Positions 10,978 through 33,597 of a stretch of 64,000 bases of DNA are shown piece by piece (within the stretch, counting starts at the first letter, position 1; each line of letters opens with the position of its first letter). Both the position numbers and the translations under genes were made by a program. This DNA comes from Halobaculum limi (GTDB lineage Archaea; Halobacteriota; Halobacteria; Halobacteriales; Haloferacaceae), in the NCBI RefSeq assembly GCF_029490015.1, contig NZ_CP120468.1, positions 1,612,001 through 1,676,000 of the forward strand. Reading direction: 5' to 3'. The notes beneath the pieces are model-generated. The model was not told where the DNA came from. It saw nothing but the letters and a program-made list of their open reading frames with translations, and made no database searches.

Positions 10978-10989
10978 GTGTGTACGCTT

Positions 10990-12183
10990 ATGTCAATAGA
11001 TTCTGCAGTCATCCTTGCGGCCGGAGAAGGCCAACGGCTCAGGCCACTCACAAAATATCGCCCAAAACCGATGCTCCCAGCCGGGAATCGCCCGATTCTT
11101 GAGTACGTCTTTGACGCATTGGTTGATGGGGGTATCGACAACCTTCACGTCGTCGTTGGCTATGAGGGAGATCGCGTTCAGGATTACTTCGGCCCCACGT
11201 ACCGTGATCGAAGTTTAACGTACCATAAACAGGAAAAACAACTTGGGAGCGGACACGCACTGTTACAAGCTCGGGACGCACTTGAGGGCGACTTCCTCGC
11301 AGTAAATGGAGATGAAATCGTTGAGGCTGAAACAATTAACGCGGTAGTTAATGCGCACTCAGTTGACGACAGTTGCACGCTCGCTATCGCTGAATCAGCA
11401 GAGGCTCCGATGTACGGTGCCGTCATACTTGACGGGGACAGAGTTTCTGAACTAATTGAGAAACCTGGGAGTGGTTCATACCGCTTGCTCAACGCAGGTG
11501 TATACGCGTTTGGTCCCAGCTTTTTTTCCGCGCTCGAGAATGCCGACCAGACGAACGGCGAGCTTGCGCTCACTGAAGGGATATCCGACATAATCGACCG
11601 TGGTGGACACGTCCGTGGTGTCAAGATTGATGGGCTTCACTCAGAAGTGACGTATCCCTGGGATCTCACCTCTCTCGCGTGTAAGCTTTTAGCAGACGGG
11701 CGTATCTCCGAACCAGAGACCGCTCCCGGTCTATATGTCTCGGAATCTGCATCTGTGGCCGATGAAGCTATTCTATACAAACCGGTTGTTATCGGTCCAG
11801 ATACTGTCGTTGAACCGGGTGCAGTCGTCGGTCCTTACACCGCGATTGGTCAAAACGCATCTGTTGAGGCTGGTGCAGTCGTTCGTCGGACAGTTCTCGA
11901 CGCAGACACGCGCATAGGCGCAAATGCGACCATCATCGATTCCATCACTGGGCAAGGTGCGGAAATCGGCGCGGGTGTAACTGCTCCCGGTGGGCTTGCT
12001 GATGTTCGTGTGAACAACCAGATCCACGAGAACGAACGTCTTGGGTGCGTTCTTGCAGACCGGGCGCACATCCGTGGTGGGGCAACGATTTTGCCTGGGC
12101 TGCTTGTTGGGCCAGGCGCGGATATTGGCGTGGGAGTTACACTCCATCGCAGTGTCGACGAAAATACTGAGGTGCAAGGCTAA
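10990..12183 (+). CDS. GlmU-like bifunctional sugar-1-phosphate nucleotidylyltransferase/acetyltransferase
   Basis: This protein of 397 residues from ATG 10990 (a GTG at 10978 would add four) has two parts. Residues 1-225 form a nucleotidylyltransferase domain with the signature LAAGEGQRLRPLTKYRPKPM and the motif GDEIV. Residues about 240-395 form a left-handed beta-helix of hexapeptide repeats. The expected reactions are acetylation of GlcN-1-P and transfer of UMP to give UDP-GlcNAc. Its stop overlaps the GlmS start (TAATG), so both steps of amino-sugar activation are coupled. It would supply the NeuC substrate. Glucose-1-phosphate thymidylyltransferase-type activity cannot be excluded. Confidence 0.88.
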   Translation: MSIDSAVILAAGEGQRLRPLTKYRPKPMLPAGNRPILEYVFDALVDGGIDNLHVVVGYEGDRVQDYFGPTYRDRSLTYHKQEKQLGSGHALLQARDALEGDFLAVNGDEIVEAETINAVVNAHSVDDSCTLAIAESAEAPMYGAVILDGDRVSELIEKPGSGSYRLLNAGVYAFGPSFFSALENADQTNGELALTEGISDIIDRGGHVRGVKIDGLHSEVTYPWDLTSLACKLLADGRISEPETAPGLYVSESASVADEAILYKPVVIGPDTVVEPGAVVGPYTAIGQNASVEAGAVVRRTVLDADTRIGANATIIDSITGQGAEIGAGVTAPGGLADVRVNNQIHENERLGCVLADRAHIRGGATILPGLLVGPGADIGVGVTLHRSVDENTEVQG

Positions 12184-15897: not shown

Positions 15898-16252
15898 ATC
15901 ATAAGACTGACTGCCACGCTAATTGTATCTTACCCCTTCGAATCTGCGTAATGCCGTTGAAACCGTGTTGTATTAAGAAACGGTGAAAGACCGGACAGTA
16001 GTTGAATTGACAGCTACGCCAATTGTAGGGAGACGACCTTTCAACTGCAGCTAATCGTGCTGCGAGCAAGTACTGAGGCATTTTGATTGGTTCTTCACTG
16101 ATTTTCTGGGTGCCACAACGTTCTCTCTTTGACTATGAGACAACGGTCAATATCTGACACTCTTGGACAAACAACTACTTCGTGGGCTCGACAGATGGGC
16201 ATTGACCGAAGCCCATTAACACGTGGATGCGAACTCAAAACCACCCTCTCGT

Positions 16253-17680
16253 ATGAAACGCGGCCAGACAGCATTCATCAATTTGGCATCGAAAATACTT
16301 GTCTCACTAACTGGCTTTGCTGCCAATTGGTACATCGCACGGGAACTCGGAAGTGAAATTCTTGGAACTTATTTGCTTATTATCTCCGTTATTTCGTGGA
16401 TGATCTTGGGCGGAAATGCAGGCATTCCGATTGCAGTTAAAAAACGGATTAGCGAACACAAAAACTCTGGTGAAGCGCTGTCAACCGGTTTTGCTCTCCA
16501 AATACTCATACTTCTAGCGCTACTTCTATTCACATTTTTAGCCCAAGAACAGTTGCGGAATTATATTGGTGTGGATGTCTTAGCAATATTTTCTGCAATC
16601 TTGGTCATTTACGCAATACACAATTTCAGCTCTTCGACTCTTGTTGGCCAGCAAAAAGTTCACATCCAAAGTCTTAGTAAGTCGATAAACACCACAATTC
16701 GCAGCGTTACCCAGATTGGACTGATTTTCTTCGGTCTTGGCATTGGTGGGCTTCTCTGGGGATACTTAGGCGGACTAATAGTATCGTTAGCGATTAGTCT
16801 CTTTTATATTGATTTTAATTATACCCGGCCGACAGTAAACAAAGCAGCCGATATTTTTTCGTATGCAAAATACTCCTGGGTTACAGCAATCAAATCTCGA
16901 ACATTTGCCGCGATGGATACAATCCTACTTGGCTTCTTTGTTACAAAGGATCTCATTGGGGTGTATGGGATCGCATGGAACGTCGCCTCTGTTCTTGCAC
17001 TCTTCGCGGGGTCAATCAGTGCAACATTATTCCCTGAGATCAGTTCACTCTCAAGTAAAGGAGACTTTGAGCAAATTGGAAGCCTGCTGGAGGACGGGTT
17101 ATCTTATGCAGGATTGTTTGTCATTCCCGGACTTGCCGGCGCTGCGATCCTTGGCGACACGATTCTGTCTATCTACGGGCCCGAGTTTGTCAAGGGATAT
17201 AGTGTACTAATTATCCTTATTCTCGCCCAACTCTTATACACATTTGAGGTTCAGTTTACGAACGCGCTTGATGCTATAGATAGACCCGATTTGACATTTC
17301 GGATAACAATTACATTCGTACTTGTGAACGTCTTTCTAAATATTGTTTTAATATCACTGGTCGGTTGGTACGGTGCAGCGATTGCCACAACGGTTTCTTC
17401 GGGTATCAGCGCAATTTTGGGGTATAAAGCACTCTCAAACCATCTCCAGTTTGCATTTCCAGTGCGAGAGCTTTCAAAACAATGTCTCGCTACAATGATA
17501 ATGGCAGGTATTGTCTTTATGGGAATTACAATATTCGGTGAAACAATACTGACAACTTTAGTGCTTGTAGTCGTCGGTGCAAGTAGCTACATATTTGCAA
17601 TGCTCGTTATTTCTCCACAGTTCAGAAAGACAGTGTCAGACAACGTTCCAGAACGGGGTTTGATTGGCAACCGACTGTAG
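16253..17680 (+). CDS. Polysaccharide/lipid-linked oligosaccharide flippase (Wzx/MATE-like)
   Basis: This protein of 475 residues from ATG 16253 (a GTG at 16223 would add ten) has about 12-14 transmembrane helices, an N-terminal KRGQTAFINLASK segment and the pattern of the MOP superfamily polysaccharide exporters (RfbX/Wzx, archaeal AglR). It would move the lipid-linked glycan across the membrane. Codons here are clearly AT-richer than in the flanking chromosome, marking the start of the most foreign-looking part of the island. A second flippase lies at 39593, implying two separate glycans or pathways. Confidence 0.9.
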   Translation: MKRGQTAFINLASKILVSLTGFAANWYIARELGSEILGTYLLIISVISWMILGGNAGIPIAVKKRISEHKNSGEALSTGFALQILILLALLLFTFLAQEQLRNYIGVDVLAIFSAILVIYAIHNFSSSTLVGQQKVHIQSLSKSINTTIRSVTQIGLIFFGLGIGGLLWGYLGGLIVSLAISLFYIDFNYTRPTVNKAADIFSYAKYSWVTAIKSRTFAAMDTILLGFFVTKDLIGVYGIAWNVASVLALFAGSISATLFPEISSLSSKGDFEQIGSLLEDGLSYAGLFVIPGLAGAAILGDTILSIYGPEFVKGYSVLIILILAQLLYTFEVQFTNALDAIDRPDLTFRITITFVLVNVFLNIVLISLVGWYGAAIATTVSSGISAILGYKALSNHLQFAFPVRELSKQCLATMIMAGIVFMGITIFGETILTTLVLVVVGASSYIFAMLVISPQFRKTVSDNVPERGLIGNRL

Positions 17681-17761
17681 GGTATAGTGAGTTCCGAACT
17701 CAACGAAAATTTTAATTGTATATTTTGAAGTTCTATAAGATACAATCAGAATTTCTAACTG

Positions 17762-18952
17762 TTATCCACTAGTCTGATCCGGGCCACTGTAGACGTCAAT
17801 TGGTTCCATAGGGCCTTTTAGTTCACAGTCTAACTGTTGCAGAGCAGAGATAATTTTGCCAGTAGCGTCACCGGTTCCATATATAGTTGAACGTGGATAA
17901 TTGCCATGACTGAGTTGAGAGGTGATTGCTTGTTCAATCGCCTCCGCATTAGATTGTACATCTACTACGTTTGGGCCGCGCTCACGCGATGATTGTCTTC
18001 CACCAATGTTGACAGCTGGTGTACCAAAGAAGGCGCATTCTCGGATTGCCACACTAGAGTTACCAACTACACACGCTGAGTTCTTGACCGTGGTGAGATA
18101 GTCTTCGGGACTTAAGTTAATAAAGAATCGAACGTTGTCAGGCGAGTACTTTTCACGGAATTCCCTAATTGCTTTGGATACTTGGTCGGTTCCGGCATCC
18201 ATATTTGGCCAAAACCAGAATGCCTGTATGTCGATTTGTCTAACAGCGTCGATCAGCTCCCATGTCTTTTCGTAGTTACTCAGATACTCAGTTGGTAATG
18301 GATGATACTGAACAACGATATACGGTTCATCTACATTCACGTGCCCACCTACACCACTCTCGACGACTTGTGGGTCAAACGACGTAGATCGTTCTTCTTC
18401 AACGGATTTCGCGATATCCATAGAAGGGCACCCAGTATGGAAAATCCGTTCAGGGCTTTCTCCCATTCTTTCCACAATCTGTGCACTACGCTCTGTGGAG
18501 ACGAAGTGATAGTCTGCCATCTTCGTCGTCGCATGGCGCACCTTGTCATCAATTGATCCGGTGACCTCTCCTCCTTCGAAGTGACATATCGGGATATTCT
18601 GGTATGAGGCGGAAAGCGTCGCCGCCATTGTCTCGTGCCTATCGCCAGTTATCAAAACGAAATCAGGATCGACTTGCTTCAAAACGTTTGCATATTCTAC
18701 TAACTGCAGTCCTGTCGTCTTCGCTTGTGTAATTGGTGTTCCACCGTCAATTAAATTAGTCAACTCGTAATCAACTCCGATTCCATCATCCTTTAGAACT
18801 GGAGCTAATTCTCCGTAGTCGTGAACAGTTGCACCACCTGAAATGATAACCGTAGAAGCGATTGTTGGTTCAGCTTCTAAAGCCTGTAAGACTGGCTTCA
18901 ACCGGCCGTATTGGGCTCGGGTAGTGAGGAAGGTAGCGACCTTGCGAGTCAT
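17762..18952 (-). CDS. neuC: UDP-N-acetylglucosamine 2-epimerase (hydrolysing), NeuC type
   Basis: This 396-residue GT-B-fold enzyme converts UDP-GlcNAc to N-acetylmannosamine plus UDP, the first committed step of sialic-acid synthesis. Visible motifs are LTTRAQYGRLKP at the N-terminus, LITGDRHETMAA (about 99) and CHFEGGEVTGSIDDKVRHATTK (in pieces at about 121-143), then GNSSVAIRECAFFGTP (about 298) in the UDP-binding half. Length fits NeuC. It is downstream of the cytidylyltransferase gene on the same strand. A LegG-type enzyme acting on a diamino sugar is the main alternative, but no other legionaminate genes are seen. Confidence 0.9.
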   Translation of the reverse strand: MTRKVATFLTTRAQYGRLKPVLQALEAEPTIASTVIISGGATVHDYGELAPVLKDDGIGVDYELTNLIDGGTPITQAKTTGLQLVEYANVLKQVDPDFVLITGDRHETMAATLSASYQNIPICHFEGGEVTGSIDDKVRHATTKMADYHFVSTERSAQIVERMGESPERIFHTGCPSMDIAKSVEEERSTSFDPQVVESGVGGHVNVDEPYIVVQYHPLPTEYLSNYEKTWELIDAVRQIDIQAFWFWPNMDAGTDQVSKAIREFREKYSPDNVRFFINLSPEDYLTTVKNSACVVGNSSVAIRECAFFGTPAVNIGGRQSSRERGPNVVDVQSNAEAIEQAITSQLSHGNYPRSTIYGTGDATGKIISALQQLDCELKGPMEPIDVYSGPDQTSG

Positions 18953-18973
18953 ACTGCGCTGATTGTCTCCGGC

Positions 18974-18984
18974 TAATATACATA
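18974..18984 (-). promoter_or_regulatory. TATA box of neuC
   Basis: The minus strand reads TATGTATATTA 22-32 bases upstream of the ATG at 18952, fitting a leaderless promoter. neuC can therefore be expressed separately from the upstream neuA. Confidence 0.5.
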
Positions 18985-19067
18985 TGACGGAACACCGATT
19001 CGCAGAGTCTCTATTTCTTCACTCTCAAGTACAAACTCAACGGTAAAATCGGCTTCTCACGGCCTGC

Positions 19068-19772
19068 TCAACGGTCAGCTTTCATAAATGAGTCAATGAG
19101 CTCCAGTTCCCATAGCTCATCGATCTGTAACGACCGACGTTCAGGCATAACATATGGGATTGTCGCCTCGGTGTAAAATGTCTCCACTGACTTCCACGTG
19201 GAAACAGTCACAATGTAGATTGCTCCATTAGGGAATAACAATTCCTCAAGATCTTGTTCCCGTGTGTACTCTGGGGAAAATAGTACAGACGGAGTGAATC
19301 GCTCCTGTAAATACCCATCCGAGTTCTTGAGTAACGCATATTGCGGGGGCTGCGTGTACTTACATACGCTGAGTAAAGAATCAGCATCGCGTTCGTTGAA
19401 TTTGGAAAGCGCCCCCGTTATATCCTCGCTTGTCCGAAGGGGCGATGTTGCTTGGAGTAGACACACAGTGTCGAATGTTTTGTCTCGGGCCTCAAACCAG
19501 TCTAACGCGTGAGAGACGACTGATGCGCTTGAAGCTGAATCCGTAGCGAGTTCTTCTGGCCTCGAGAATGGAACATCTGCGCCGTACTTCTTAGCAATCT
19601 CGGCGATCTCGTCATCCTCAGTTGAGACAATCGTTGTATCGATCGCTTCAGTTGAAATTGCTTCTTCAATTGTATGAGCAATAAGTGGTTTTCCGCCAAC
19701 CTCTCTGATATTCTTACGCTTGACTCTTTTGGATCCACCTCTCGCCGGTATGATCGCGAGCACTGATGTCAT
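19068..19772 (-). CDS. neuA: N-acylneuraminate cytidylyltransferase (CMP-sialic acid synthetase)
   Basis: This 234-residue protein couples CTP and a nonulosonic acid to give the CMP-sugar. The N-terminus carries the signature IIPARGGSKRVKRKNI. LLQATSPLRTSEDI appears at about 105-118, and the C-terminal part resembles the short NeuA/LegF form without an esterase domain. It precedes neuC on the same strand. With NeuB (26772) and NeuC (17762) it completes a three-step route from UDP-GlcNAc. Whether the sugar is Neu5Ac or a relative cannot be decided from NeuA alone. Confidence 0.93.
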   Translation of the reverse strand: MTSVLAIIPARGGSKRVKRKNIREVGGKPLIAHTIEEAISTEAIDTTIVSTEDDEIAEIAKKYGADVPFSRPEELATDSASSASVVSHALDWFEARDKTFDTVCLLQATSPLRTSEDITGALSKFNERDADSLLSVCKYTQPPQYALLKNSDGYLQERFTPSVLFSPEYTREQDLEELLFPNGAIYIVTVSTWKSVETFYTEATIPYVMPERRSLQIDELWELELIDSFMKADR

Positions 19773-19946
19773 TCATTATATCTCTTGATACCCAAGAGGT
19801 AAAAATCGAACCGTCTGAATGTCGGCTCTTACCGCACTACTATACCATAACACACAGAACCAATGACAACAAATATCGTTTGTAATACTAATAATCTCAT
19901 TTTTCTATAATTTCTATCTGTTAATCTTTACCAATTTCATAAAATG

Positions 19947-21059
19947 CTAAAGATACCCCAAGTCGGACAGCCTTCCCCTGACACCTTCATCATCTATTGA
20001 TTTGTGTTCACGTTCAACTGGATCAAAACTATTCTTCTCAACTCCGATCTCGGATTTGTCTACCTCAAACCAGGGTACTTCGCGTAAGATCGGATGGAGT
20101 ACGTCTGGGTGGTCATACTGCCCGTATTCACCGAGAAACTCTCCGTGGTCTGCTGTAATAACAACAGGGCAGTCAACGCACCTTGCGAGTCGCCGTATCT
20201 GTTTAAGTGCTATCTCGAGATTATCGACGTACCCTCGCTGAATATCCTCGTTCGTCACAACTCCTTCGCGTAACAGCGCTCTGTACCCACGCCCCTCTGA
20301 GTTAGTAATTTGAAGGCCGTATTGAAGTTCATCACTCCACGTGACATCATACTTCAGAGCCTGCTCGAGTGTGATTTCCGTGTTATTTTCAAGAAACATT
20401 TCACGTTCTTGATCGGAATAGTTTATGCTGAAAGATCGACTCTTGTGATCAAGTACATAATGTGAAAATCCCTTCTCTCCAATGAAGGGAAGGTGTGGCT
20501 GTAGGTAGTGGACAACCAATCTTGTCGGCTCGTCACGTGCTGCCTCTTCTAGAGCGATATCAGTCATATCTGAGGGATAGACTGACTCCACATCATCATC
20601 CCATGCAAAGTTGTACGCATCAACAAATCGCTCAACGTGATCCGCTGCGCAGAATGTATTGTATCCAAAGTCTGAATTCCGAGGAGAGTACTCAAAATCA
20701 CCGATGATAGGATTAGAGCTAATGTACGTAAGATCATAGTCTTCTGTCCAAACCTGCGGCCCCCACTGGGGCGTCAAGCTTCCGGGACTCCACGCTTTAT
20801 CAATTTCTCCGGTTAAGTAGTCAGAAATAGCTGATTCAAATGTGTCAAACCTGCAAGCATCAAGCACAACCAATACGAATTCATCATTCTGTTCGATGTA
20901 TTGATGGATTAAGCGACGCTGGTCATCGATAGAGTTGATTCTTTCGTATATCTTCCCATATGTCGATAGGAAGTGCGGGATCGTATTGTCTCTGATGAAT
21001 GGTAGTATCCTATGTGGATTTTTCATCGCCCGCTTTGCTAATCGTATAATTTCGTTCAC
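19947..21059 (-). CDS. Alkaline-phosphatase/sulfatase superfamily protein
   Basis: This 370-residue protein has the core motif FVLVVLDACRFDTFE (about residues 62-76), the metal-site segment VVITADHGEFLGEYGQYDHP split over about 297-317, and YLQPHLPFIG (about 186). These match the metal-binding framework of the alkaline-phosphatase-like fold, which includes sulfatases and phosphoglycerol transferases. It has no signal peptide and is likely cytoplasmic or peripheral. Such genes are common in haloarchaeal surface-glycan clusters. Removal or transfer of a phosphate or sulfate group on a glycan is a guess from context. It lies between the capsule-type transferase and neuA on the same strand. Confidence 0.8.
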   Translation of the reverse strand: MNEIIRLAKRAMKNPHRILPFIRDNTIPHFLSTYGKIYERINSIDDQRRLIHQYIEQNDEFVLVVLDACRFDTFESAISDYLTGEIDKAWSPGSLTPQWGPQVWTEDYDLTYISSNPIIGDFEYSPRNSDFGYNTFCAADHVERFVDAYNFAWDDDVESVYPSDMTDIALEEAARDEPTRLVVHYLQPHLPFIGEKGFSHYVLDHKSRSFSINYSDQEREMFLENNTEITLEQALKYDVTWSDELQYGLQITNSEGRGYRALLREGVVTNEDIQRGYVDNLEIALKQIRRLARCVDCPVVITADHGEFLGEYGQYDHPDVLHPILREVPWFEVDKSEIGVEKNSFDPVEREHKSIDDEGVRGRLSDLGYL

Positions 21060-21222
21060 CGTTACGCAGAGGACAGAGAAGAATAGAGATAAATGTTACC
21101 AAGCCTGGCTTGACTCGGTAAAACTGCTTCTTTTAGCTCCGTCGTGGATTGGGCGCTCAAATATGAACGAACAACACTGTGGAGTAGAGGATATCGTAAT
21201 GAACACATTTGTTAAATATTTG

Positions 21223-22647
21223 TCACTTATTGAATCGTCTGTTATGCTGGAGGTCTTGAATTTCTTCAAGAGAAGCAATGATCTCTTCTATCGGATTTGG
21301 TTTGAAATATCGCTCTTTTTTAAATAAAGACATACGAGGTTGATCTATGCCTTCTACAAGGTCATCTGTCGACTTGAGCCATCCTGCTGCTCCCTCTTCG
21401 ACGAGGTGACTTAATCCGTCGGCTCCGTATGCGTCGTATAAGAATGTCTTTAGATTGAATGCTAATCCCTCATAAATCGCTGTTGAGTAAACACCGATCT
21501 GAGCAATCGACTCAGCCATCAGTTTGTATAGTGAAGGTGAATCTTTCACGACGTGAATGTCAGATTCAACGAGCCATGGATACTCTGATTCCCACCGATC
21601 ATATTCTCCGGGATGAAGTTTGTAGATTATATTGTAATCGAGACGTTGGTCGTTTTGTACGTCAACAGCAAACTTGGATAATTTAGATCCAATTGTTCCT
21701 TGGGAAATAAATAGAATCTGTGGTTTCTGCTTGACATTGTTATACTGTGATATCTGTTGTTGAAGATACGGATATCCCGCGGCAATAACCCGCTCGGACG
21801 AGATCGGATATGAGGCGTTATCATTCCAGAACTCACCGAAAGTGAAAAGATAATCAGGGAAAAATTCTAAGTTATTATCATTGGGGAATGAATAACCAAG
21901 ATGGTTCTCGCTGATAATCCCATGCTGCAACTCTACGACCGGAATATTTTGTCGTTTACAAGCTTCGATGAACGTCTTTCTTAGATAGCCAACAACCACA
22001 ACGGACACATCAGGGTTGATACGGCGAAGAACGTGAGTGTATAGTGGGAGAGTGGCTTTTCGTTCAGCCATCTCTGCTCTGATGATATATTTGAGATCAA
22101 TTGTCGCTCCCACTTCGCGCTGGATTTCGGACTCAACTGCTGTAATTGCTTTCTGAAGTGATTTGTCCAACTCAAGCCGATCAGCGAGGGTTTTCCGTGC
22201 CAGCGTACCCGTGTAGGTGATCGAATCTAAATATCGTAGCTGTTCAGTCTTCGCAGGTGTGTGATGAGTCAACCCAAACGGTGGTTCAAGTTGGACGTAG
22301 TCCAGTTTCCCCTCCTCGTGTATTGGATCACAGTATATATCCCACCATCTTCCATCGCTTTGCTCTTTCCTTCGTGGATGGCCAAGAAAGAGGAAATTAT
22401 GTTCAGATGCAAAAAACGGACTATCAAACGCAAAGTTTCGCAACCACTGATAGACGCCTTGGGTCAACTGGCTTAGATTATCTTTAGGTTCTGTATGTGC
22501 CTGATCTGCACCGACTTTTTCTTGTAATTCTCGGTGGAGGATAAATCGTACTCGCTCCCAGATCGGCAACCCGTCGACTGTCCACTCAAAGCAGTCGTGG
22601 TCTTGTTCTATCTGTTTAATTGCTGCCGAAATCTCACCCTCATCCAT
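21223..22647 (-). CDS. Capsule-type glycosyl/polyol-phosphate transferase-like protein
   Basis: This protein has 474 residues from ATG 22647; a TTG at 22662 would add five. It lacks membrane segments. Motifs such as VVVVGYLRKTFIEACKRQNI, VELQHGIISENHLGY (about 245) and YKLHPGEYDRWESEYP (about 345), then GVYSTAIYEGLAF, match the GT-B-like fold of capsule synthesis and polysialyltransferase/CDP-glycerol-transferase-like proteins. In this setting it is a candidate for adding the CMP-activated nonulosonate to the glycan, but this is inference from position. It is the first gene of a minus-strand run leading to neuA and neuC. Confidence 0.72.
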   Translation of the reverse strand: MDEGEISAAIKQIEQDHDCFEWTVDGLPIWERVRFILHRELQEKVGADQAHTEPKDNLSQLTQGVYQWLRNFAFDSPFFASEHNFLFLGHPRRKEQSDGRWWDIYCDPIHEEGKLDYVQLEPPFGLTHHTPAKTEQLRYLDSITYTGTLARKTLADRLELDKSLQKAITAVESEIQREVGATIDLKYIIRAEMAERKATLPLYTHVLRRINPDVSVVVVGYLRKTFIEACKRQNIPVVELQHGIISENHLGYSFPNDNNLEFFPDYLFTFGEFWNDNASYPISSERVIAAGYPYLQQQISQYNNVKQKPQILFISQGTIGSKLSKFAVDVQNDQRLDYNIIYKLHPGEYDRWESEYPWLVESDIHVVKDSPSLYKLMAESIAQIGVYSTAIYEGLAFNLKTFLYDAYGADGLSHLVEEGAAGWLKSTDDLVEGIDQPRMSLFKKERYFKPNPIEEIIASLEEIQDLQHNRRFNK

Positions 22648-22662
22648 TGCTAGTTTGAACAA

Positions 22663-23067
22663 CCATCCACCAGTAGTAAGTATTGTTGGAGAGAAGTATT
22701 TGTGTGCAAAAATAAGATTTGTGACAGTACTCTTTGCTTGATTCCGGAGAAAGCCTGAATAATCGGTCGTTCTGGTTTGAAATTCTCTATATACGTTAGG
22801 GCAAATGTTGTCATATATCTAGAGTTGAATAATACACGAAAATACGTGATGCGAAGATCAAAATGCCATAATTCCCAATAAATAAAAACAAAGCATTTGG
22901 AGAATAATATTTAATATAAACATAATATGTGTGAATTGTTCTCGTCTACGGTAGAATGACGTGTTAGGTGAGGCCACAGATGGTCATCATACTGCAAAAG
23001 GATCTTGCATTACTGAAGCCATCCTGTAGCCAATATTACAGAAATTTAACTTGAACGTGTAATTTCA
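22663..23067. other. Divergent AT-rich intergenic region
   Basis: About 400 bases separate the minus-strand transferase run from the plus-strand amino-acid-enzyme trio. The part around 22850-22930 is very AT-rich. No ORF or RNA gene was recognised; it should hold the promoters of both operons. Confidence 0.4.
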
Positions 23068-23115
23068 GTGATTGCGGTAGCATTTTGTCCCTATGCCTCG
23101 TGCCCGGAAGTACTA

Positions 23116-24069
23116 ATGCAAGCGAATCCCTCCGAGTATTGTCCCTACGATGTTACTGATCCGCTCTTACAACAGATAGGTGGCACTCCAATTGTATCTT
23201 TTGAGGGAGCTAAACATCAAAACGTGTTCTGTAAGCTGGAGAGCAGGAATCCAACTGGTTCGATGAAAGATCGGATCGCGCTCGGCTTACTATTAGATCA
23301 GAAACAGCAAGGTGAATATGAGACAATTGTAGAAGCTAGTTCTGGCAATACTGCTGGATCAGTTGCTTTTGTATCAAACAGACTTGGCTTTGACTGTCAT
23401 GTTACGTTGCCAGAGTCCACCAGTGACCAGAAAAAGGGATACGTACGGGCATTTGGGGCAGAAATTCACGAGTGTCCTAGCGTGTCACAGGGACATCCCG
23501 AGTACTATCATACCGTTGCAGAACGCCTTTCAGATGAACTTGAAGCATATTTTGTAAACCAGTACTACAATTCAGGCAACCCGAGCGTTCACTATGAATG
23601 GACCGGTCCAGAAATCTGGTCTCAAATCGGGGAGGATCTCACGCATATTGTCTGCCCGATGGGTACTGGTGGAACAATTAGTGGTATTGCACGATATCTT
23701 AAAGAAGCCGTAGAAAACACTGAACAGCAGATTACTATCGTAGGTGTTGACGCCGAAAATTCGAATATTTCGACTTCATTTTATGAACAAGATCCTGTCG
23801 AATACGACACGTCTGTCGAAGGCCTGGGCAAAGGGCACGAACTCCCAACAATGTGGTTTGAATATATTGATGAAATCCGAAGTGTCACTGATCAAGATGC
23901 ATTTGCCACTGCGCGGGCGGCAAGTAGCAATCATGGCCTACTTATCGGACCCAGTGCGGGTGCTGCCCTCTCGGTTGCAACTGAAATTGGCAATAATGAC
24001 CCTGAGGCAGCCGTCTTGAGTGTCGTATGTGATGGTGCAGAGCAATATTTTGACACCCTGTATGTCTAA
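23116..24069 (+). CDS. Cysteine synthase/CBS-family PLP enzyme
   Basis: Residue count is 317 from ATG 23116; GTG 23068 would add 16 residues that do not resemble the family. This fold-type II PLP enzyme has the Lys-bearing motif NPTGSMKDRIA, the substrate loop SSGNTAGS, the phosphate-binding glycine loop PMGTGGTISG and a C-terminal SAGAALSVA. Family members perform beta-replacement on O-acetyl- or O-phosphoserine; relatives make 2,3-diaminopropionate. It is transcribed with a racemase-like and an asparagine-synthetase-like gene inside the sialic-acid block, so a special amino acid for glycan decoration is more attractive than general cysteine supply. Substrate is unproven. Confidence 0.85.
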   Translation: MQANPSEYCPYDVTDPLLQQIGGTPIVSFEGAKHQNVFCKLESRNPTGSMKDRIALGLLLDQKQQGEYETIVEASSGNTAGSVAFVSNRLGFDCHVTLPESTSDQKKGYVRAFGAEIHECPSVSQGHPEYYHTVAERLSDELEAYFVNQYYNSGNPSVHYEWTGPEIWSQIGEDLTHIVCPMGTGGTISGIARYLKEAVENTEQQITIVGVDAENSNISTSFYEQDPVEYDTSVEGLGKGHELPTMWFEYIDEIRSVTDQDAFATARAASSNHGLLIGPSAGAALSVATEIGNNDPEAAVLSVVCDGAEQYFDTLYV

Positions 24070-24196
24070 GTCATCTGAGATTAAGCTGACCGCATACTAG
24101 ATTCTATTTATGTTCATATACGAACAACTCTAATATCCGTACCAAAGACATTCTACCGAAGAAAATATACACGGATACGACCCTATATATATCGAG

Positions 24197-24901
24197 ATGT
24201 CATATCGTGATGGGCCTTCAGATGAGTCAGTAATAGGTATTCTTGGGGGTATGGGACCTGAGGCAACAATTAACTTCCAACGAGAGCTAATTGATGAAAC
24301 TCCTGCAGAGACCGACCAAGACCACATTACCACATTCGTATCTAACGACCCACATATCCCTGATCGGAATAAAGCTATCTTGGAGGGAGCAGAAAGTCCG
24401 TTACCGAAACTGAAAGCAAATGTATCCAAATTAACCGAGGTTGGATCAGATTTTATTGTTATCCCGTGTAATACCGCTCATTATTATTTTGATGACTTGA
24501 CTTCCAGCACCAAAACGGAGTTCATCAATATGATTTCAATCACTGAAGATGAACTTAACCAAGACGGTGTCAGCAAAATCGGTCTTCTTGCAACAGAAAC
24601 AGTGATCAATGTTGGGATCTACGAAGAGTACTTCACGAACTCACCAGTTGAGCTGGTTACTCCTAATAATACCAGACAACTAATGGACGCAATTTATGCG
24701 GTCAAACAAGGGAACCAACAGAAGGCTGTGGAGAAATTGACCCCAATTATTGAGTCGTTTGAGGGGAGTGACTGCGAAGCACTATTGATTGGATGCTCTG
24801 ACCTTTCAGTTCTTCCAATAAGCACTGATCTGAACACGTACGATCCAATTACTATACTTGCGAAAGCATGTGTAACCCGTGCTAAGCCTAACTGTAGCTG
24901 A
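24197..24901 (+). CDS. Aspartate/glutamate racemase family protein
   Basis: This 234-residue protein has the N-terminal motif GILGGMGPEATINF, the first catalytic-Cys motif IPCNTAHYY (about 90) and the second Cys motif LLIGCSDLS (about 195). Both Cys of the two-base mechanism are present, so it should be active. The family interconverts L- and D-Asp or Glu without PLP. It lies 127 bases after the cysteine-synthase-like gene and 49 before the asparagine-synthetase-like gene. A D-amino acid for the surface glycan or another product is possible. Maleate isomerase-like activity is less likely. Confidence 0.87.
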   Translation: MSYRDGPSDESVIGILGGMGPEATINFQRELIDETPAETDQDHITTFVSNDPHIPDRNKAILEGAESPLPKLKANVSKLTEVGSDFIVIPCNTAHYYFDDLTSSTKTEFINMISITEDELNQDGVSKIGLLATETVINVGIYEEYFTNSPVELVTPNNTRQLMDAIYAVKQGNQQKAVEKLTPIIESFEGSDCEALLIGCSDLSVLPISTDLNTYDPITILAKACVTRAKPNCS

Positions 24902-24950
24902 GCGCTCTTTTATCGCAACTGTTTCGTGATATACCTCAGTATTCGACCCT

Positions 24951-26753
24951 ATGTCAAGATTCCATCTGACGACTAGCTCTCATAGGCATACAAAGGCCAA
25001 GGAACTTTGTAATGACGCCGGCTTGGATGTCGCTGCAAGCCTTTCTGAGGATAATTTTCATATCTCGACATATCACAAGAGAACATTCGAAAACACAAAC
25101 TTTCAACCTTTAGATTCAACCTCATTTATTGCAATAACAGGGACGATAATAATTGACGGGAAGATGGGAGAGAACGCTTTAGATTCTGTTTATAAAACGT
25201 ACGCCAAGTCTGGTGCTAAAGAGGTACGCGAACGTAGCTTTGGTCACTACTCGGTAGTCATTAAAGATGGAGACCACATTGAGATATTTGGAGATCCCAA
25301 CGGGGTGTACGAGATTTATTACACAACTGAAGAGCAGTGGATGGTTTCTAATTCACTTCACGTTTGCTCACACTCATTATCCAGCCCTACTGTAGATGAA
25401 TATAAGCTACTTGAGAAGTCACTTGAAGTCTCTGAAATCACAGACGCGACACCGTTCACTGAAGTCAAACGCTTAGCTGGAAATGAGATCATCTCAGCAA
25501 ATCTAATAGACGGAAGCTTTTCGGTCGAATCACTCGAGAGGCCTACCGTTGATTGGGATTATTCTGGAGAACAAATCAATGCTATCGTCTCAGACTACCG
25601 CGACCGTGTCAAATCAGTATTTAATCAGATTACGAAGGCATCATCTAATTTAGGAGTTCAAGCGACCGGTGGGCTGGACTCTCGATCGGTGCTAGCAGGG
25701 CTATTACAACAGGATGCCTCTCCCAGTATATTATACGCCGTTGGCAATTCTCCGCTTACAAACACAGACGATAATGACCTTGACGTGGCCCGCGAGTATG
25801 CGAAACGATTTGATCTTGAATTCAAAAAGCTTGACTGGGGAGGTAATCTGCCAACAGAACGATCTGGTTGGACATCGCTATTTGAGAAATACGGCTATCG
25901 ATATCACACGTATGGAGCGACCGAGAACTTCTATAACAGCTTGAGTTCGCCGGCAATTCCGGAACTCTTGTTGAGTGGGTACGCATTCGGAACAGTCTCA
26001 AACGTATATTATTGGGAGCAGGAATCGCTCGTCCCCATTACGTTAGAGCAGATTGTGAAAGAACACTTCTCATATGTACAGAAGTTTTCGAAAGACCAAT
26101 TCAATAAAAAACAAGAGTATTTGGACAAGCTAGTTCTGCACTGTCAGTCCGCACTCAATCGGTTGGGACACGATATCGAAACGGACGAAAAGATGTCTGT
26201 TTGCGCTTTCGCACGAGTGATACAATTGTTGAACGGGAGACCTCAGTCTGCATATGTGAATGTCGCAAACGAGTTTTCGTTCCACTTGTCCCCATATGCG
26301 ACATTCGAGTTGAGTCGCCCAATGCTGGATTTCCCCCCGGAACATAGACGTGGTGAACGCATTCGTGTGAAATTGCTGAATGAGTTGTATTCCGACATTC
26401 TCAACATACCAATATATTCGGGGATCGAGCGTGCACAAATTAACAACCAGGATGAATTGGTGTTTCCGAGGTCTGGACGTGAGCGACTAATTGATTTCGC
26501 TGAACAGTCATTACCATCTCTACTATTGTCGACTATTCGTCCCGTCTACCGACGGCTCAATTCTGGACCAGTCGGTACCTCAACATATTCTGAGCTGGTG
26601 GAATCATATCAATCCCGACTAAGTGATAGTCAGCTCTATCAAGATGAATTTCAGCTCAAAACGTACACCAATGATATTCGCGTCCCAGCACGAATTGCAC
26701 ACTATGTACATGGTGTTGAGCAAGTAGGATATGACGAGATTGTTCGGTACTAA
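24951..26753 (+). CDS. Asparagine-synthetase-like ATP-dependent enzyme lacking the N-terminal Cys
   Basis: This 600-residue protein has an N-terminal Ntn/glutaminase-like region (about 1-150; FGHYSVVIKDGDHIEIFGDPNG) but starts MSRF, so the Cys2 nucleophile that hydrolyses glutamine is absent. A synthetase domain follows from about 215, with the PP-loop QATGGLDSRSVLAG at about 234-247 (TGGLDS for the usual SGGLDS). It should adenylate a carboxylate and form an amide with ammonia or an external amine. Relatives amidate uronic acids in O-antigens (WbpS type) or close beta-lactam and lasso rings. It is the last gene of the trio with the PLP enzyme and racemase. Confidence 0.82.
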   Translation: MSRFHLTTSSHRHTKAKELCNDAGLDVAASLSEDNFHISTYHKRTFENTNFQPLDSTSFIAITGTIIIDGKMGENALDSVYKTYAKSGAKEVRERSFGHYSVVIKDGDHIEIFGDPNGVYEIYYTTEEQWMVSNSLHVCSHSLSSPTVDEYKLLEKSLEVSEITDATPFTEVKRLAGNEIISANLIDGSFSVESLERPTVDWDYSGEQINAIVSDYRDRVKSVFNQITKASSNLGVQATGGLDSRSVLAGLLQQDASPSILYAVGNSPLTNTDDNDLDVAREYAKRFDLEFKKLDWGGNLPTERSGWTSLFEKYGYRYHTYGATENFYNSLSSPAIPELLLSGYAFGTVSNVYYWEQESLVPITLEQIVKEHFSYVQKFSKDQFNKKQEYLDKLVLHCQSALNRLGHDIETDEKMSVCAFARVIQLLNGRPQSAYVNVANEFSFHLSPYATFELSRPMLDFPPEHRRGERIRVKLLNELYSDILNIPIYSGIERAQINNQDELVFPRSGRERLIDFAEQSLPSLLLSTIRPVYRRLNSGPVGTSTYSELVESYQSRLSDSQLYQDEFQLKTYTNDIRVPARIAHYVHGVEQVGYDEIVRY

Positions 26754-26771
26754 TTAATCGATATTTTCACT

Positions 26772-27788
26772 TTACTCTTTGAGGTCTGAGTAGTGAATGA
26801 TGCTATTTTCTTCTAGATCCTTTGCTAGCGTTCGTCCCACTACAGAATAAAATTCTTCTGCTGGAATACCAGTCCCCGGACGCTTTGTTGTCATTACCTT
26901 TTCGCTCAGTACGTCCCCTTCCGAGAGAGGCGAGGTGGTCACCACACTGTGCCTGGCCCATAATTTCACATCTGCTTCTTCCTGCGTTATCTCTTTTTCG
27001 TGACCCCGCGTATCCTGCACAGTCTCAGAGAATGCAGCCAGTTCTGCCATCTCCTCAGGCTCAATCGAGACCGCCTGATCAGGACCAGGCAGTCGCCGGT
27101 CAATAGTAAAGTGCTTCTCAACGAAATCTGCCCCCTTAGCCATCGCAACCGAAGAGACTCGCGTTCCAGTAGAGTGATCAGAAAAGCCGATTGGAACCCC
27201 AAACTCATCTTTCATACGCGAGATTGTATCAAGGTTCATATCGTCAGGATCAGCAGGATATGCCGAGACGCAGTATAAGAGCGCGACTTGGGATGCTTTT
27301 GGTTCGATGAAATCAAATGTATCTTGAATTGTTTCGAAGTCACTCATTCCGGTTGAGATGAGCAACGGCCTCCCTGTTTCAGCTGCTTTTCGGAGAAGGG
27401 GATAATTAGTGAGCTCCCCAGATCCAATTTTTATTGCTGGAACGCCAATATCGTCAAGCAGTTCAACTGCTTCTGTAGAAAACGGCGTCGAAAGGAAGTT
27501 TACATCCTTTTCGGCGCAACGGGACTGAAGGCGCTTATGTTCTTGCTTCGTGAACTGGTTGCCGGCTACTACGTCAAATACATCACCGTGTCCGAGATGC
27601 TCCATTTCCGATTGGACCATCTCAGCTTGTGGAATGTGAGTTTGGAACTTGACTGCATCAGCACCAGCTTCTGCGGCTGCATCAATATGTGCCTCTGCCA
27701 ATTCGAGATCGTCACGAGCATTTATACCGACCTCTGCGATAACGTACGGTGGTTCGCTTGTGCCGATCGCGGTAGTTCCGATTTTCAT
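26772..27788 (-). CDS. neuB: N-acetylneuraminate synthase family (NeuB)
   Basis: This protein has 338 residues from ATG 27788; an upstream reading to 27824 lacks family similarity, and the TATA position supports 27788. It condenses phosphoenolpyruvate with ManNAc or a related sugar. Motifs include PYVIAEVGIN at the N-terminus, AVKFQTH (about 45), FLSTPFS (about 89), IKIGSGELTN (about 108) and GFSDHSTG (about 192). The C-terminal part (about 275-338) is an antifreeze-like SAF domain with ARHSVVTT. It converges with the asparagine-synthetase-like gene. NeuB, LegI and PseI are homologous; the presence of NeuC points to a Neu5Ac-like product. Confidence 0.93.
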   Translation of the reverse strand: MKIGTTAIGTSEPPYVIAEVGINARDDLELAEAHIDAAAEAGADAVKFQTHIPQAEMVQSEMEHLGHGDVFDVVAGNQFTKQEHKRLQSRCAEKDVNFLSTPFSTEAVELLDDIGVPAIKIGSGELTNYPLLRKAAETGRPLLISTGMSDFETIQDTFDFIEPKASQVALLYCVSAYPADPDDMNLDTISRMKDEFGVPIGFSDHSTGTRVSSVAMAKGADFVEKHFTIDRRLPGPDQAVSIEPEEMAELAAFSETVQDTRGHEKEITQEEADVKLWARHSVVTTSPLSEGDVLSEKVMTTKRPGTGIPAEEFYSVVGRTLAKDLEENSIIHYSDLKE

Positions 27789-27808
27789 CGTTAGAATCTT
27801 TAGTAGAG

Positions 27809-27819
27809 TATATAAATAA
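27809..27819 (-). promoter_or_regulatory. TATA box of neuB
   Basis: The minus strand reads TTATTTATATA, 21-31 bases upstream of the ATG at 27788. This supports a leaderless neuB mRNA and the chosen start. Confidence 0.6.
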
Positions 27820-28019
27820 CCCACCGGTGTTTTGCTCGCTGTTTCTCCTCCACAAATTGCCGTCCGTATGAAGCACTCGTCTACACTGATCTGACGAAGT
27901 CTGTATAGACCTTGGTGAGGTAGAACTCATCTCTATCATCCGGCTATTCTCGGTTAAAATTCTAATGCAGTTGTAATTTCTAATAATCCTGTTTCAACAG
28001 AACGAACAATCCTAGCCGT

Positions 28020-29389: not shown

Positions 29390-30448
29390 TCAGCGAATAA
29401 ACTGAGAGGGATCATCAGCAGAGAATATCACGTCTAATGCACAGACATTCCCGCCTTCCCACGTTGGCTCCCAGTCTTGGATTTCGACATCGATGTTTTG
29501 GGCTGTGAATGGGGCCTCATCGACGTAGTTTTCATATCCTGTCTTCCCTGAGAGATAAGAATCGCCATCGAACGCGGCGGTCAATTCCGCGAGATATTCT
29601 GATGGGTCGCCTGGATGTTCCACATCAACGTGGCTTGAGCGGACTACCTTCGAATCGATCTCGAACCGTTCGAAGAGCTCTTCGAGCAACGGGATTGTTA
29701 AATCAACTAACAACTCGGAGGATACTACCTTTGCTGGTTCCACCCCGGTAAGATCCCACAGCGATTCGGGCGGCAGTACTTCGACATCGGTGTTTGCAGG
29801 AATGTATTCAGCGAGTTCGACGAGGGCCTGATCCCGCTGCCGTCTTCTCACATTGATCTGGTGTTCCATTGGATCCAACCGCTCTGCAAGGGCTCGAACG
29901 GAATCGACTAGATTGGCTGCGTCGCGTTCTCGGCCTTCTGACCGAGCCACTGAGATCTGGTTGCCAAGTGCCTCTTTCTTCAGTTGTAGGTTAGATACCT
30001 TGTGTTCGGAATCCTGCAACGCTGAATCGTGCTTCAAAACTTCATCCAGAACCGACGACCCTTCTTGCCCAACCACGTCTCGGAGTAATTTGGTCGACTC
30101 ACGGACTGCTTCAATCGTCGGGACAGATAGCAATAGGCTCTCAAAGAATGGTTCAAACGCGTACGCACGCGGCCCGTATTTGTGGACCAGCGTTTCGATG
30201 TGTTCGCTCATCCACGGTGTCGACATATCGATCGTCGCATCACAGATCCGCGTCTTCGTTCCGCTATGTTCTACCGGAATCGTCAACCAATCACTCTCAC
30301 CGACTGAGATCGCTGCTCTGTGTTGGCGAGACCGTCGGGAGAACTCAACATCGTCGTAGATGATGAACACATCCGCTTGCTGTGCTCGTGCAAGGTAGTG
30401 TAGGCGGGGAAAGTACCGCGGTTGATATGCGGTGACTGTTGTAACCAC
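29390..30448 (-). CDS. WbqC-like family protein with a coiled-coil insertion
   Basis: This 352-residue protein starts at GTG. The N-terminus (TAYQPRYFPRLHYLARAQQADVF, in part, then YDDVEFSRRSRQHRAAI) and the C-terminus (LDLTIPLLEELFERF-like segment, SGKTGYENYVDE) match the WbqC family, which is found in O-antigen clusters and linked to amino-sugar modification. Between about residues 125 and 205 lies a charged, heptad-like helical region (HKVSNLQLKKEALGNQ, EGRERDAANLVDSVRA) that looks like a coiled coil and is longer than I would expect for WbqC. Its exact reaction is not established for the family. Confidence 0.8.
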   Translation of the reverse strand: MVTTVTAYQPRYFPRLHYLARAQQADVFIIYDDVEFSRRSRQHRAAISVGESDWLTIPVEHSGTKTRICDATIDMSTPWMSEHIETLVHKYGPRAYAFEPFFESLLLSVPTIEAVRESTKLLRDVVGQEGSSVLDEVLKHDSALQDSEHKVSNLQLKKEALGNQISVARSEGRERDAANLVDSVRALAERLDPMEHQINVRRRQRDQALVELAEYIPANTDVEVLPPESLWDLTGVEPAKVVSSELLVDLTIPLLEELFERFEIDSKVVRSSHVDVEHPGDPSEYLAELTAAFDGDSYLSGKTGYENYVDEAPFTAQNIDVEIQDWEPTWEGGNVCALDVIFSADDPSQFIR

Positions 30449-31723: not shown

Positions 31724-31891
31724 ATGAAACAAATACAAGTAGACCTGGGGATCGGTGCGGTTCGACAGTATCGCGAAGAAAATACCGCTTCGAACGGAAG
31801 CAGACAGTTGACTGTCCGCAACACCGAAGTGAAGACTGATGCGGCCGAACTATCATCCAAACTAACGGAAGAATCTGAGGTGGTGTATTAA
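31724..31891 (+). CDS. Small hypothetical protein coupled to the beta-helix gene
   Basis: A 55-codon ORF starts at ATG 31724 (MKQIQVDLGIGAVRQ) and ends TAA overlapping the next ATG (TAATG at 31889-31893). It fills the space between the Tat microprotein and the beta-helix gene without a gap, which argues for real translation and coupling. It is polar and acidic, with no signal peptide, membrane segment or Cys. Not recognised. Confidence 0.5.
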   Translation: MKQIQVDLGIGAVRQYREENTASNGSRQLTVRNTEVKTDAAELSSKLTEESEVVY

Positions 31892-33597
31892 TGCCAACAA
31901 CTGTTTCTACTATCGACGAACTGCAGAGTGCAGTCGAGAATGCCGGTCCTGGTTCGGAGATTATCGCGCGCGGGGGGACATACGATCTGTCCTCACGGTG
32001 GGTAGTCACCGCTGGTGGTGCACGGAATAATCCGCTTGTTATTCGCGCTGCCGATGGTGAGACACCACACATTCGATTCGATTCTGGCGGTCGTTCGGAG
32101 AAAGATGACAACGGTATTCAATTCCGAAGTCCTCACGTACATTTCGTCGGGTTCGAAGTTTCTGGATCTGGATGGAAAGGCGTCAACACCGATGGAGACG
32201 CCGACGACGTAGTTTTCGAGGATCTTGACGTCCACGACTGCTATGTCTGGGGGATAATGAACAACGACTGTGACAACGTCACCTTCCGCAACTGTGATTC
32301 ACATCACAATAGGGGTAATCCGGGCAATGCTGACGGGTTCAATATGACCGGCTCCGCGGAAAATGGGCTAATTGAAGGCTGCCGTTCGTGGGGGAATGGT
32401 GACGATGGATACGACACGTGGGTCTCTCGGAATCACACGATCCGAAACTGCTGGGCGTGGGACAACGGTCACGACGGCGGCGACGGAAACGGGTTCAAAC
32501 TTGGCGGCGGGCCAGACGACGGTGGGGGCCACCTCGTCCACAACTGTGTAGCGTACGACAACAGCTATCGCGGCTTCGATTGGAACACGACCGATCAGGC
32601 ACTCGAGATTTACAATTGCACCGCAGTCGACAACCCGGTCAATTACCGGTTCAACGAGAATGGACCGTACACACTCCGAAACAACATTTCAGTCGGTGGG
32701 AGTGTGTATCTCGCTGATGAAGTCGACGATACCAATAACACGTGGAATCTCGACATCTCGGACCCGATGATTGTCTCGACTGATCCGACCGATGCAGAGT
32801 TTATGCAACTCCAAAGCGACAGCCCTTGCATCGATGCTGGAGAAGACGTAGGGCTGCCATTCGCGGGCTCGGCTCCCGATCTCGGCGCATTCGAGTCGGA
32901 AGGTCAGATTGGTACTGGTGGCGGAGAAGAAGAGCCAACTGACAGCACAACGCTTGGTGACGGAGAAACCCCATTGTATGCGGTGGATGCCGAGACGAAC
33001 AGCCTGTTCCAGACTGAGCACGCTGGATTCACCAACGAAGGATACATCAATTTCGATCAAGACAGCGGGGCATTTGCCCGTTGGCAGCTCGATGTTGAAA
33101 CCGCTGACCAGTACCAACTTGAGATCCGGTTCGCGAACGGGGGGTCCGGTGACCGGACTGCGAACCTCACGTACGCCGGCACACAACAGCAGATCACGTT
33201 CCCGCAGACGGGCGGATGGACGGACTGGGCAACGATGACGGAATCAGTCGAGTTGCCGAGTGGCTCGGTTGAACTCACAATTGAGACGACGGGGCAGGAT
33301 GCTGGTAACGTTGATATGGTCACAATCTGGCCAATCCAGGAGACTGAGCCTAGTGAACCGACCACTGGTGACACTACCAACCACGGCTTCGCTACTCCCG
33401 AGCCGGGGCAAGCCGACTGGCATATCCCCCTCAATGAGAACTTTGAGGCCATCGACAGGGTTGCTCCTGTTGTGGACGTGGATGGTGCCAAAACAGAGTA
33501 TACCCCTACTGAGCGGTCTCTGTATATCGCACTGGATACCGGAGTAATCTATGTGGGCGATGGTTCACAGTGGAACCAGCTCGGTAGCCTGAACTAG
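31891..33597 (+). CDS. Right-handed beta-helix (pectate-lyase-like) protein with carbohydrate-binding module
   Basis: This 568-residue protein has a parallel beta-helix at residues 1-330, with repeated N-C-x-short turns such as VTFRNCDSHHNRG, LIEGCRSWGNGDDGYD and LVHNCVAYDNSYRG; it resembles PL9/PL1-type polysaccharide lyases. A Gly/Glu linker follows, then a CBM35/CBM6-like beta-sandwich (about 360-490; ARWQLDVETADQYQLEIRFA). A C-terminal segment (about 500-568) has WHIPLNENFEAID and YIALDTGVIYVGDG. It lacks any signal peptide of its own although the domains are of secreted type. The TAATG overlap links it to the 55-residue gene. Likely binds or trims surface polysaccharide. Confidence 0.82.
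   Translation: MPTTVSTIDELQSAVENAGPGSEIIARGGTYDLSSRWVVTAGGARNNPLVIRAADGETPHIRFDSGGRSEKDDNGIQFRSPHVHFVGFEVSGSGWKGVNTDGDADDVVFEDLDVHDCYVWGIMNNDCDNVTFRNCDSHHNRGNPGNADGFNMTGSAENGLIEGCRSWGNGDDGYDTWVSRNHTIRNCWAWDNGHDGGDGNGFKLGGGPDDGGGHLVHNCVAYDNSYRGFDWNTTDQALEIYNCTAVDNPVNYRFNENGPYTLRNNISVGGSVYLADEVDDTNNTWNLDISDPMIVSTDPTDAEFMQLQSDSPCIDAGEDVGLPFAGSAPDLGAFESEGQIGTGGGEEEPTDSTTLGDGETPLYAVDAETNSLFQTEHAGFTNEGYINFDQDSGAFARWQLDVETADQYQLEIRFANGGSGDRTANLTYAGTQQQITFPQTGGWTDWATMTESVELPSGSVELTIETTGQDAGNVDMVTIWPIQETEPSEPTTGDTTNHGFATPEPGQADWHIPLNENFEAIDRVAPVVDVDGAKTEYTPTERSLYIALDTGVIYVGDGSQWNQLGSLN

Follow-up and report, generated by a model that had tools for sequence, protein, structure and literature searches.

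What would a cysteine-synthase-like enzyme, an aspartate/glutamate-type racemase, and an asparagine-synthetase-like ligase do in the middle of a block of sialic acid-type genes? The question is raised by a 64-kb stretch of the 3.48-Mb genome of the haloarchaeon Halobaculum limi (contig NZ_CP120468.1, positions 1,612,001 to 1,676,000; here called the window), in which three consecutive open reading frames on the plus strand encode such proteins. We consider it probable that this trio forms a module that makes an amino acid and links it through an amide bond to a glycan; that the amino acid is cysteate has, in our judgment, a little less than an even chance. The initial annotation had described the trio as a pyridoxal phosphate (PLP) enzyme, a two-cysteine racemase, and an AsnB-type ligase, all on the plus strand, and both the coordinates and the family matches agree with that description. 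The three genes are as follows.

23068 to 24069, plus strand: PLP fold-type II beta-replacement enzyme, CBS/CapA-like (subfamily CysK'), proposed cysteate synthase; PF00291, 247.5 bits
24197 to 24901, plus strand: cofactor-independent racemase of the Asp/Glu/cysteate type, with C91 and C200; PF01177, 98 bits
24951 to 26753, plus strand: predicted AsnB-fold ATP-dependent amide ligase with Ser2 and the PP-loop TGGLDSR; NCBIfam and Foldseek matches

An eight-gene set in three haloarchaeal families

Nonulosonate genes were said to flank the trio on the minus strand, and they do so on both sides. NeuB is directly downstream of the ligase gene and convergent with it; NeuA and NeuC stand on the opposite side, with an orphan glycosyltransferase (GT)-like gene and a sulfatase-fold gene between them and the trio. 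These genes are as follows.

26772 to 27824, minus strand: NeuB-type nonulosonate synthase with SAF domain; PF03102, 253.6 bits; PF08666; NnaB model, 322 bits; PseI model, 246 bits; kept in loci L014 and L015
21223 to 22662, minus strand: orphan GT-B-like protein with KLHP and STAIYEG motifs, possible nonulosonate transferase; conserved in genomes G072, G264, and G217
19947 to 21059, minus strand: alkaline-phosphatase-superfamily ("sulfatase-like") protein; PF00884 below threshold; 55 to 56% identical in both other clusters
19068 to 19772, minus strand: NeuA-type CMP-nonulosonate cytidylyltransferase; PF02348; kept in L014 and L015
17762 to 18952, minus strand: NeuC, hydrolysing UDP-N-acetylglucosamine (UDP-GlcNAc) 2-epimerase; TIGR03568, 343.4 bits versus a cut-off of 235.9

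The comparison set comprised 392 genomes of the order. Ligase homologues were found in five of them, and two of the four matches outside the window genome were tight, with 39 to 41% identity over the full length: G072, judged to be Halobacterium sp. TGN-42-S1, and G264. Both of these ligases are surrounded by a PLP enzyme, a racemase, a sulfatase-like protein, a GT-like protein (complete in locus L075 in the case of G264), NeuA, NeuB, and NeuC. The eight genes (the trio, those for NeuA, NeuB, and NeuC, the alkaline-phosphatase-superfamily gene, and the GT-B-like gene) thus stand together in three haloarchaeal genomes belonging to three families. Gene order and strand differ among the three clusters, so it is content rather than order that is conserved. 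Racemase homologues (E ≤ 1e-30) occur in 6 of the 392 genomes; the three cluster genomes come first, and beyond them the score drops from 419 to 218 bits. The tight racemase clade and the tight ligase clade are found in exactly the same 3 of 392. With genomes treated as independent draws, the chance of such sharing is 1e-7, a figure that is approximate, since a cassette is inherited and transferred as one unit. As the set of eight genes is found again in two further families, the co-location of the trio with the neu genes is more than chance. The neighbourhood check proposed for this locus, co-occurrence of the three families beside neuA and neuB in other genomes, therefore gave a positive answer in two further haloarchaea. 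A pattern scan of the genome contigs with a single sequence gave no match, and Halobacterium sp. TGN-42-S1 was the only match to an alignment-based pattern. A tblastn search of plasmids gave no ligase match and, for the PLP enzyme, only generic CysK-like matches.

Among the nonulosonate proteins, NeuC passes its model cut-off (343 versus 236 bits), while NeuB and NeuA stay below the equivalog cut-offs (NnaB, 322 versus 399.65; PseF, 184.6 versus 205.7), so the nonulosonate of the cassette may be N-acetylneuraminate (Neu5Ac) or a relative. The GT-like protein had no match in Pfam or NCBIfam; its low-confidence AlphaFold model gave weak, nonsignificant Foldseek matches of GT-B type.

Active-site residues of the three enzymes

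The PLP enzyme has the Schiff-base lysine (Lys67, in SMKDR), an SSGNT loop, and NQY and EGLGK motifs; its true start is probably the ATG at 23116, since homologues align from there. It did not reach the cut-off for CysK (TIGR01139; 194.8 versus 350.95 bits), CysM (TIGR01138; 177.6 versus 394.2), or the SbnA diaminopropionate synthase (TIGR03945; 165.1 versus 349.95), and it was also below the CBS equivalog cut-off. Because the CysK, CysM, CBS, SbnA, and CapA models score similarly and every equivalog cut-off is missed, a name for the enzyme must come from its residues and its context. Its closest solved relative is PDB 9k2p (221.8 bits; the next scores 195.5), which the NCBIfam model identifies as a CapA cysteate synthase (606.7 versus 600 bits). 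CysK' and CapA, the latter known from capnine/sulfonolipid synthesis, are alike in PLP fold type II, SSGNT, NQY, and the EGxGK loop. SSGNT is common to both, while TSGNT or TAGNT was found in the other sequences checked. The lysine of the EGLGK/EGIGK loop is present in 15 of 16 main-clade CysK' proteins and in CapA, and A, P, or T replaces it in the outgroup, cysteine-synthase-like sequences checked. The equivalent residue in human CBS is the active-site Tyr308, and a lysine at this position could therefore hold a nucleophile that is anionic, for example sulfite. CysK' forms a single clade in the PLP tree (support, 100/99), and other CysK/CBS-like paralogues are present in the same genome. Judged by its sequence, the PLP enzyme is not an ordinary cysteine synthase.

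The racemase belongs to the family of two-cysteine Asp/Glu racemases and CuyB, scoring above the cut-offs of PF01177 (98 bits) and TIGR00035 (175.7 bits), and both catalytic cysteines are conserved, C91 in PCNTAH and C200 in GCSD. Its best PDB match is the Asp racemase of Pyrococcus horikoshii, and alignment shows that it retains the Arg and the Lys that bind substrate carboxylates in Asp racemase. On the CuyB cysteate-racemase model (NF052483; cut-off, 190), it scored 225 bits, and the racemases of the other two clusters scored 234 and 231 bits. As proof of cysteate, this match was dropped after the P. horikoshii Asp racemase, used as a control, scored 249.6 on the same model. This cut-off cannot tell aspartate enzymes from cysteate enzymes. 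The racemase itself indicates an acidic substrate; cysteate is reached only through the intersection with a beta-replacement enzyme, and for the window racemase it stays putative. Annotations derived from NF052483 can likewise overcall cysteate racemase. In two homologues, L060:13769-14371 (G322, SNTTH) and L071:9771-10442 (G050, ASNLTH), the first catalytic cysteine is replaced by serine and the second is kept. Single-cysteine members of the family, such as arylmalonate decarboxylase, carry out different chemistry, and these two proteins are possibly not racemases. The G322 homologue, with its first cysteine lost, lies ~3.5 kb from a divergent relative of the PLP enzyme; those of G028 and G050 are not beside a CysK' gene.

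The ligase matches PF00733 below threshold (16.4 versus 21 bits). NCBIfam models of AsnB and of macrolactam cyclases match it at E values of 1e-8 to 1e-9, the best being a macrolactam cyclase subfamily (35.6 bits), and it has a profile match to a ligase with PF13537 and PF00733. The PP-loop, TGGLDSR at residues 239 to 245, is conserved. Foldseek matched its AlphaFold model, which is of low confidence (predicted local distance difference test score [pLDDT], 56), to Asn synthetase, carbapenam synthetase, and beta-lactam synthetase with a probability of 1.00; this model and that of the GT-like protein were used for fold class alone. The protein is thus placed in the AsnB-fold superfamily, with an N-terminal nucleophile-like domain and a PP-loop synthetase domain, the Foldseek part of this assignment coming from the low-confidence model. 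Its fold and PP-loop are shared with asparagine synthetase B, beta-lactam synthetase, and the lasso/macrolactam cyclases, from which it differs in its subthreshold PF00733 match, its divergent C-terminal half, and its gene company. It is not an asparagine synthetase B, in which Cys2 is the glutaminase nucleophile: residue 2 is Ser, and Ser, Thr, or Ala occupies this position across the three tight homologues. Beta-lactam synthetase also lacks Cys2. A ligase without Cys2 would be unable to obtain ammonia from glutamine by the usual route.

Pairing of CysK' with divergent ligases

The CysK' subfamily was found in 19 of the 392 genomes, delimited by a clear score gap (323 to 212 bits), and up to 20 kb around each gene was examined. 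An AsnB-like ligase adjoins or lies within ~2 kb of 11 of the 16 main-clade CysK' genes. These ligases are of four types (the window type in three pairings, c15 in four, c25 in three, and the G354 type in one), so divergent that little beyond the PP-loop residues aligns. None of them starts with Met-Cys. In the c25 type, a GATase_7 domain can still be recognised, but Val stands at the Cys2 position. Genomes with paired loci hold roughly 4 to 9 PF00733-like loci each, from which we estimate that chance adjacency of CysK' and a ligase would be ~1% per genome, or perhaps 10 to 20% if restricted to glycan loci. Genes for AglB, flippase, and nucleotide-sugar enzymes are present in many of these loci. 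The PLP enzyme of G072 groups among the c15-paired ones (100/99), yet its ligase is of the window type. By this phylogeny, ligases have been exchanged around one PLP lineage, which suggests that the lineage has a shared product serving different ligases. A divergent-clade CysK' gene, that of G336, adjoins a gene for a non-AsnB ligase, ATPgrasp_TupA (teichuronopeptide type; L059:9323-11604).

Two further observations concern the genes around CysK'. A DUF1611 gene (PF07755/PF17396; L054:8347-9483) adjoins the main-clade CysK' gene of G368, which has no AsnB-like ligase neighbor, and distant relatives of the alkaline-phosphatase-superfamily protein (19947 to 21059) are found in the CysK'-AsnB loci L047, L048, and L052.

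Proposed pathway, its alternatives, and the surrounding cassette

From these data we infer the following order of steps, substrates, and acceptor. The PLP enzyme would replace the beta-leaving group of an activated serine (O-phosphoserine or O-acetylserine) with sulfite, giving L-cysteate; the two-cysteine racemase would convert L-cysteate to D-cysteate; and the AsnB-like ligase would adenylate a carboxylate and form an amide with that amino acid instead of with glutamine-derived ammonia, the use of which seems precluded by the loss of Cys2. With Cys2 lost and adjoining genes predicted to make an amino acid, an amino-acid amide would be the natural product. In the likeliest product, the amino group of the amino acid would be bound as an amide to a sugar carboxylate, with the acceptor being the nonulosonate made by NeuC, NeuB, and NeuA or a different acidic sugar of its glycan. 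The surface glycan would gain a sulfonate and keep a carboxylate. L- or D-cysteate is our best guess for the amino acid because 9k2p is the closest relative, the loop lysine is shared, and the racemase family takes acidic substrates. The initial annotation had envisaged an unusual amino acid joined to a carboxylated sugar such as a nonulosonate or uronate. The conserved unit with neuA, neuB, and neuC and the PLP-ligase pairing in glycan loci favor this general scheme; diaminopropionate, one of the amino acids suggested, fits badly, and the best fit is cysteate, an amino acid that annotation had not named. A broader proposal, which we hold only tentatively and think more doubtful, is that haloarchaea make cysteate de novo, epimerise it, and amide-link D-cysteate to a sugar of sialic acid type or another acidic sugar by Cys2-less AsnB-like ligases, so building sulfonated glycans, the same PLP product being used with several unrelated ligases in N-glycan loci.

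Several observations weigh against the cysteate module. The PLP enzyme is well below the CapA cut-off (NF053679; 202.3 versus 600 bits), CysK' is neither inside nor grouped with CapA in the PLP tree, and CapA belongs to a lipid locus rather than a glycan locus. The cysteate-racemase model also accepts an Asp racemase, as described above, and the ligase model is of low confidence (pLDDT, 56). Five of the 16 main-clade CysK' genes (those of G368, G320, G014, G029, and G057) have no ligase neighbor, and a racemase is absent from most CysK'-ligase loci, which places the racemase step outside the wider pairing. Within the cassette, we found neither a uronate gene nor any other clear sign of what the acceptor is.

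Comparison with known systems places the module near, and apart from, several others. WbpS/PGN_1234 of the Wbp/Vim pathway is an AsnB homologue of a glycan locus that converts a sugar carboxylate to a uronamide (PMC7468200); its product is a plain uronamide, whereas the window ligase lacks Cys2 and is accompanied by enzymes predicted to make an amino acid. In the N-glycan of Methanococcus voltae, N-acetylmannosaminuronic acid (ManNAcA) is substituted by threonine at position 6, and the enzyme attaching threonine was unidentified, for M. maripaludis, in the same review (PMC2952790). This, too, is an amino acid on an acidic sugar of an archaeal surface glycan; threonine is proteinogenic, however, and no PLP synthase or racemase is described. 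The legionaminic acid N-glycan pathway of Halorubrum sp. PV6 is likewise a haloarchaeal nonulosonate pathway, with no mention of an Asn synthase, cysteine synthase, or racemase (PMC6137143); the window differs in its NeuC-type epimerase, and no legionaminic aminotransferase was noticed nearby. In the literature, we found no described archaeal pathway of this kind and no report of a cysteate-bearing polysaccharide or of the Methanococcus threonine-attaching gene. The surface proteins of haloarchaea depend on glycans that are acidic. If real, a cysteate amide would supply sulfonate charge by a route other than the sulfation of sugars, and it would be uncommon for an archaeal glycan to carry a D-amino acid. 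The module offers candidate families for the enzymes that attach amino acids to archaeal glycans and predicts that Cys2-less AsnB homologues in archaeal glycosylation loci serve in amino-acid ligation rather than amidation.

The same kind of decoration could be made with D-aspartate (or D-glutamate) from the racemase, the PLP enzyme supplying a second amino acid or another step. This is what the Asp/Glu family and the P. horikoshii best match would suggest; we think it unlikely, since the PLP enzyme is the more widely conserved partner of the ligases, mostly without a racemase, so that its product is the likelier substrate of the racemase. Rather unlikely, in our view, is a ligase that uses no sugar carboxylate and instead activates the carboxylate of the amino acid itself for the N-acylation of an amino sugar; the aminoacyl sugar so formed would resemble the seryl- or glycyl-modified linking sugars of Porphyromonas and Tannerella. 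Amino-acid carboxylates can be activated by enzymes of the AsnB fold (Asp by AsnB; the substrates of beta-lactam synthetase). Against this, NeuC and NeuB, starting from UDP-GlcNAc, leave the N-acetyl group in place, and we noticed no deacetylase in any of the three clusters. Aminoacyl-modified amino sugars do exist, but in Porphyromonas gingivalis the N-acyl step is assigned to VimA rather than to the AsnB homologue (PMC7468200).

The PLP enzyme might make another beta-substituted alanine (2,3-diaminopropionate, S-sulfocysteine, or cysteine), as enzymes of the CysK/CBS fold have a broad nucleophile scope and the SbnA model scores 165 bits; this seems quite improbable, given that the SbnA (350) and CysK (351) cut-offs are not reached, that we noticed no SbnB partner in the clusters, and that a basic or neutral product would suit an Asp/Glu-type racemase poorly. 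The macrolactam cyclase top match in NCBIfam and the Foldseek matches to beta-lactam and carbapenam synthetases would fit a trio that makes a diffusible small molecule or a cyclised peptide and lies in a glycan locus by chance. We regard that as very improbable: neuA, neuB, neuC, and the GT-like gene are constant in the three clusters, the wider pairing has AglB or flippase genes, and we noticed neither a precursor peptide nor a carrier or exporter in the loci. Ordinary cysteine and asparagine metabolism, which the initial annotation had named as a finding that would refute its reading and which the family names alone recommend, is hardly credible. The CysK, CysM, CBS, and AsnB equivalog cut-offs are not reached, CysK/CBS-like paralogues are encoded elsewhere in the genome, the tight ligase and racemase clades are confined to 3 of 392 genomes, and the ligase lacks the glutaminase nucleophile.

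The trio and its nonulosonate genes, in which we favor an amino acid-attaching module, lie in a low-GC block that is probably an acquired glycan cassette. No convincing flanking repeats marking its ends were found around the cassette, and AglB is not in the window. The block and the gene at its edge are as follows.

16000 to 28000, no strand: low-GC block, GC 0.43 to 0.46 versus 0.51 to 0.55 in the flanks
16223 to 17680, plus strand: Wzx/MurJ-type flippase at the edge of the block; PF01943; homologues in several other CysK' loci

Genes for a GlmU-like protein and GlmS are located at 10978 to 13988, just outside the block, and GlmS and GlmU-like genes also adjoin NeuA in L014, which is consistent with a supply of UDP-GlcNAc for NeuC. 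Downstream of the cassette, 31891 to 33597 encodes a protein with a beta-helix and CBM6, and 29390 to 30448 encodes a WbqC-like protein (PF08889), a segment of which weakly matches the N-terminal (coiled-coil) domain of seryl-tRNA synthetase.

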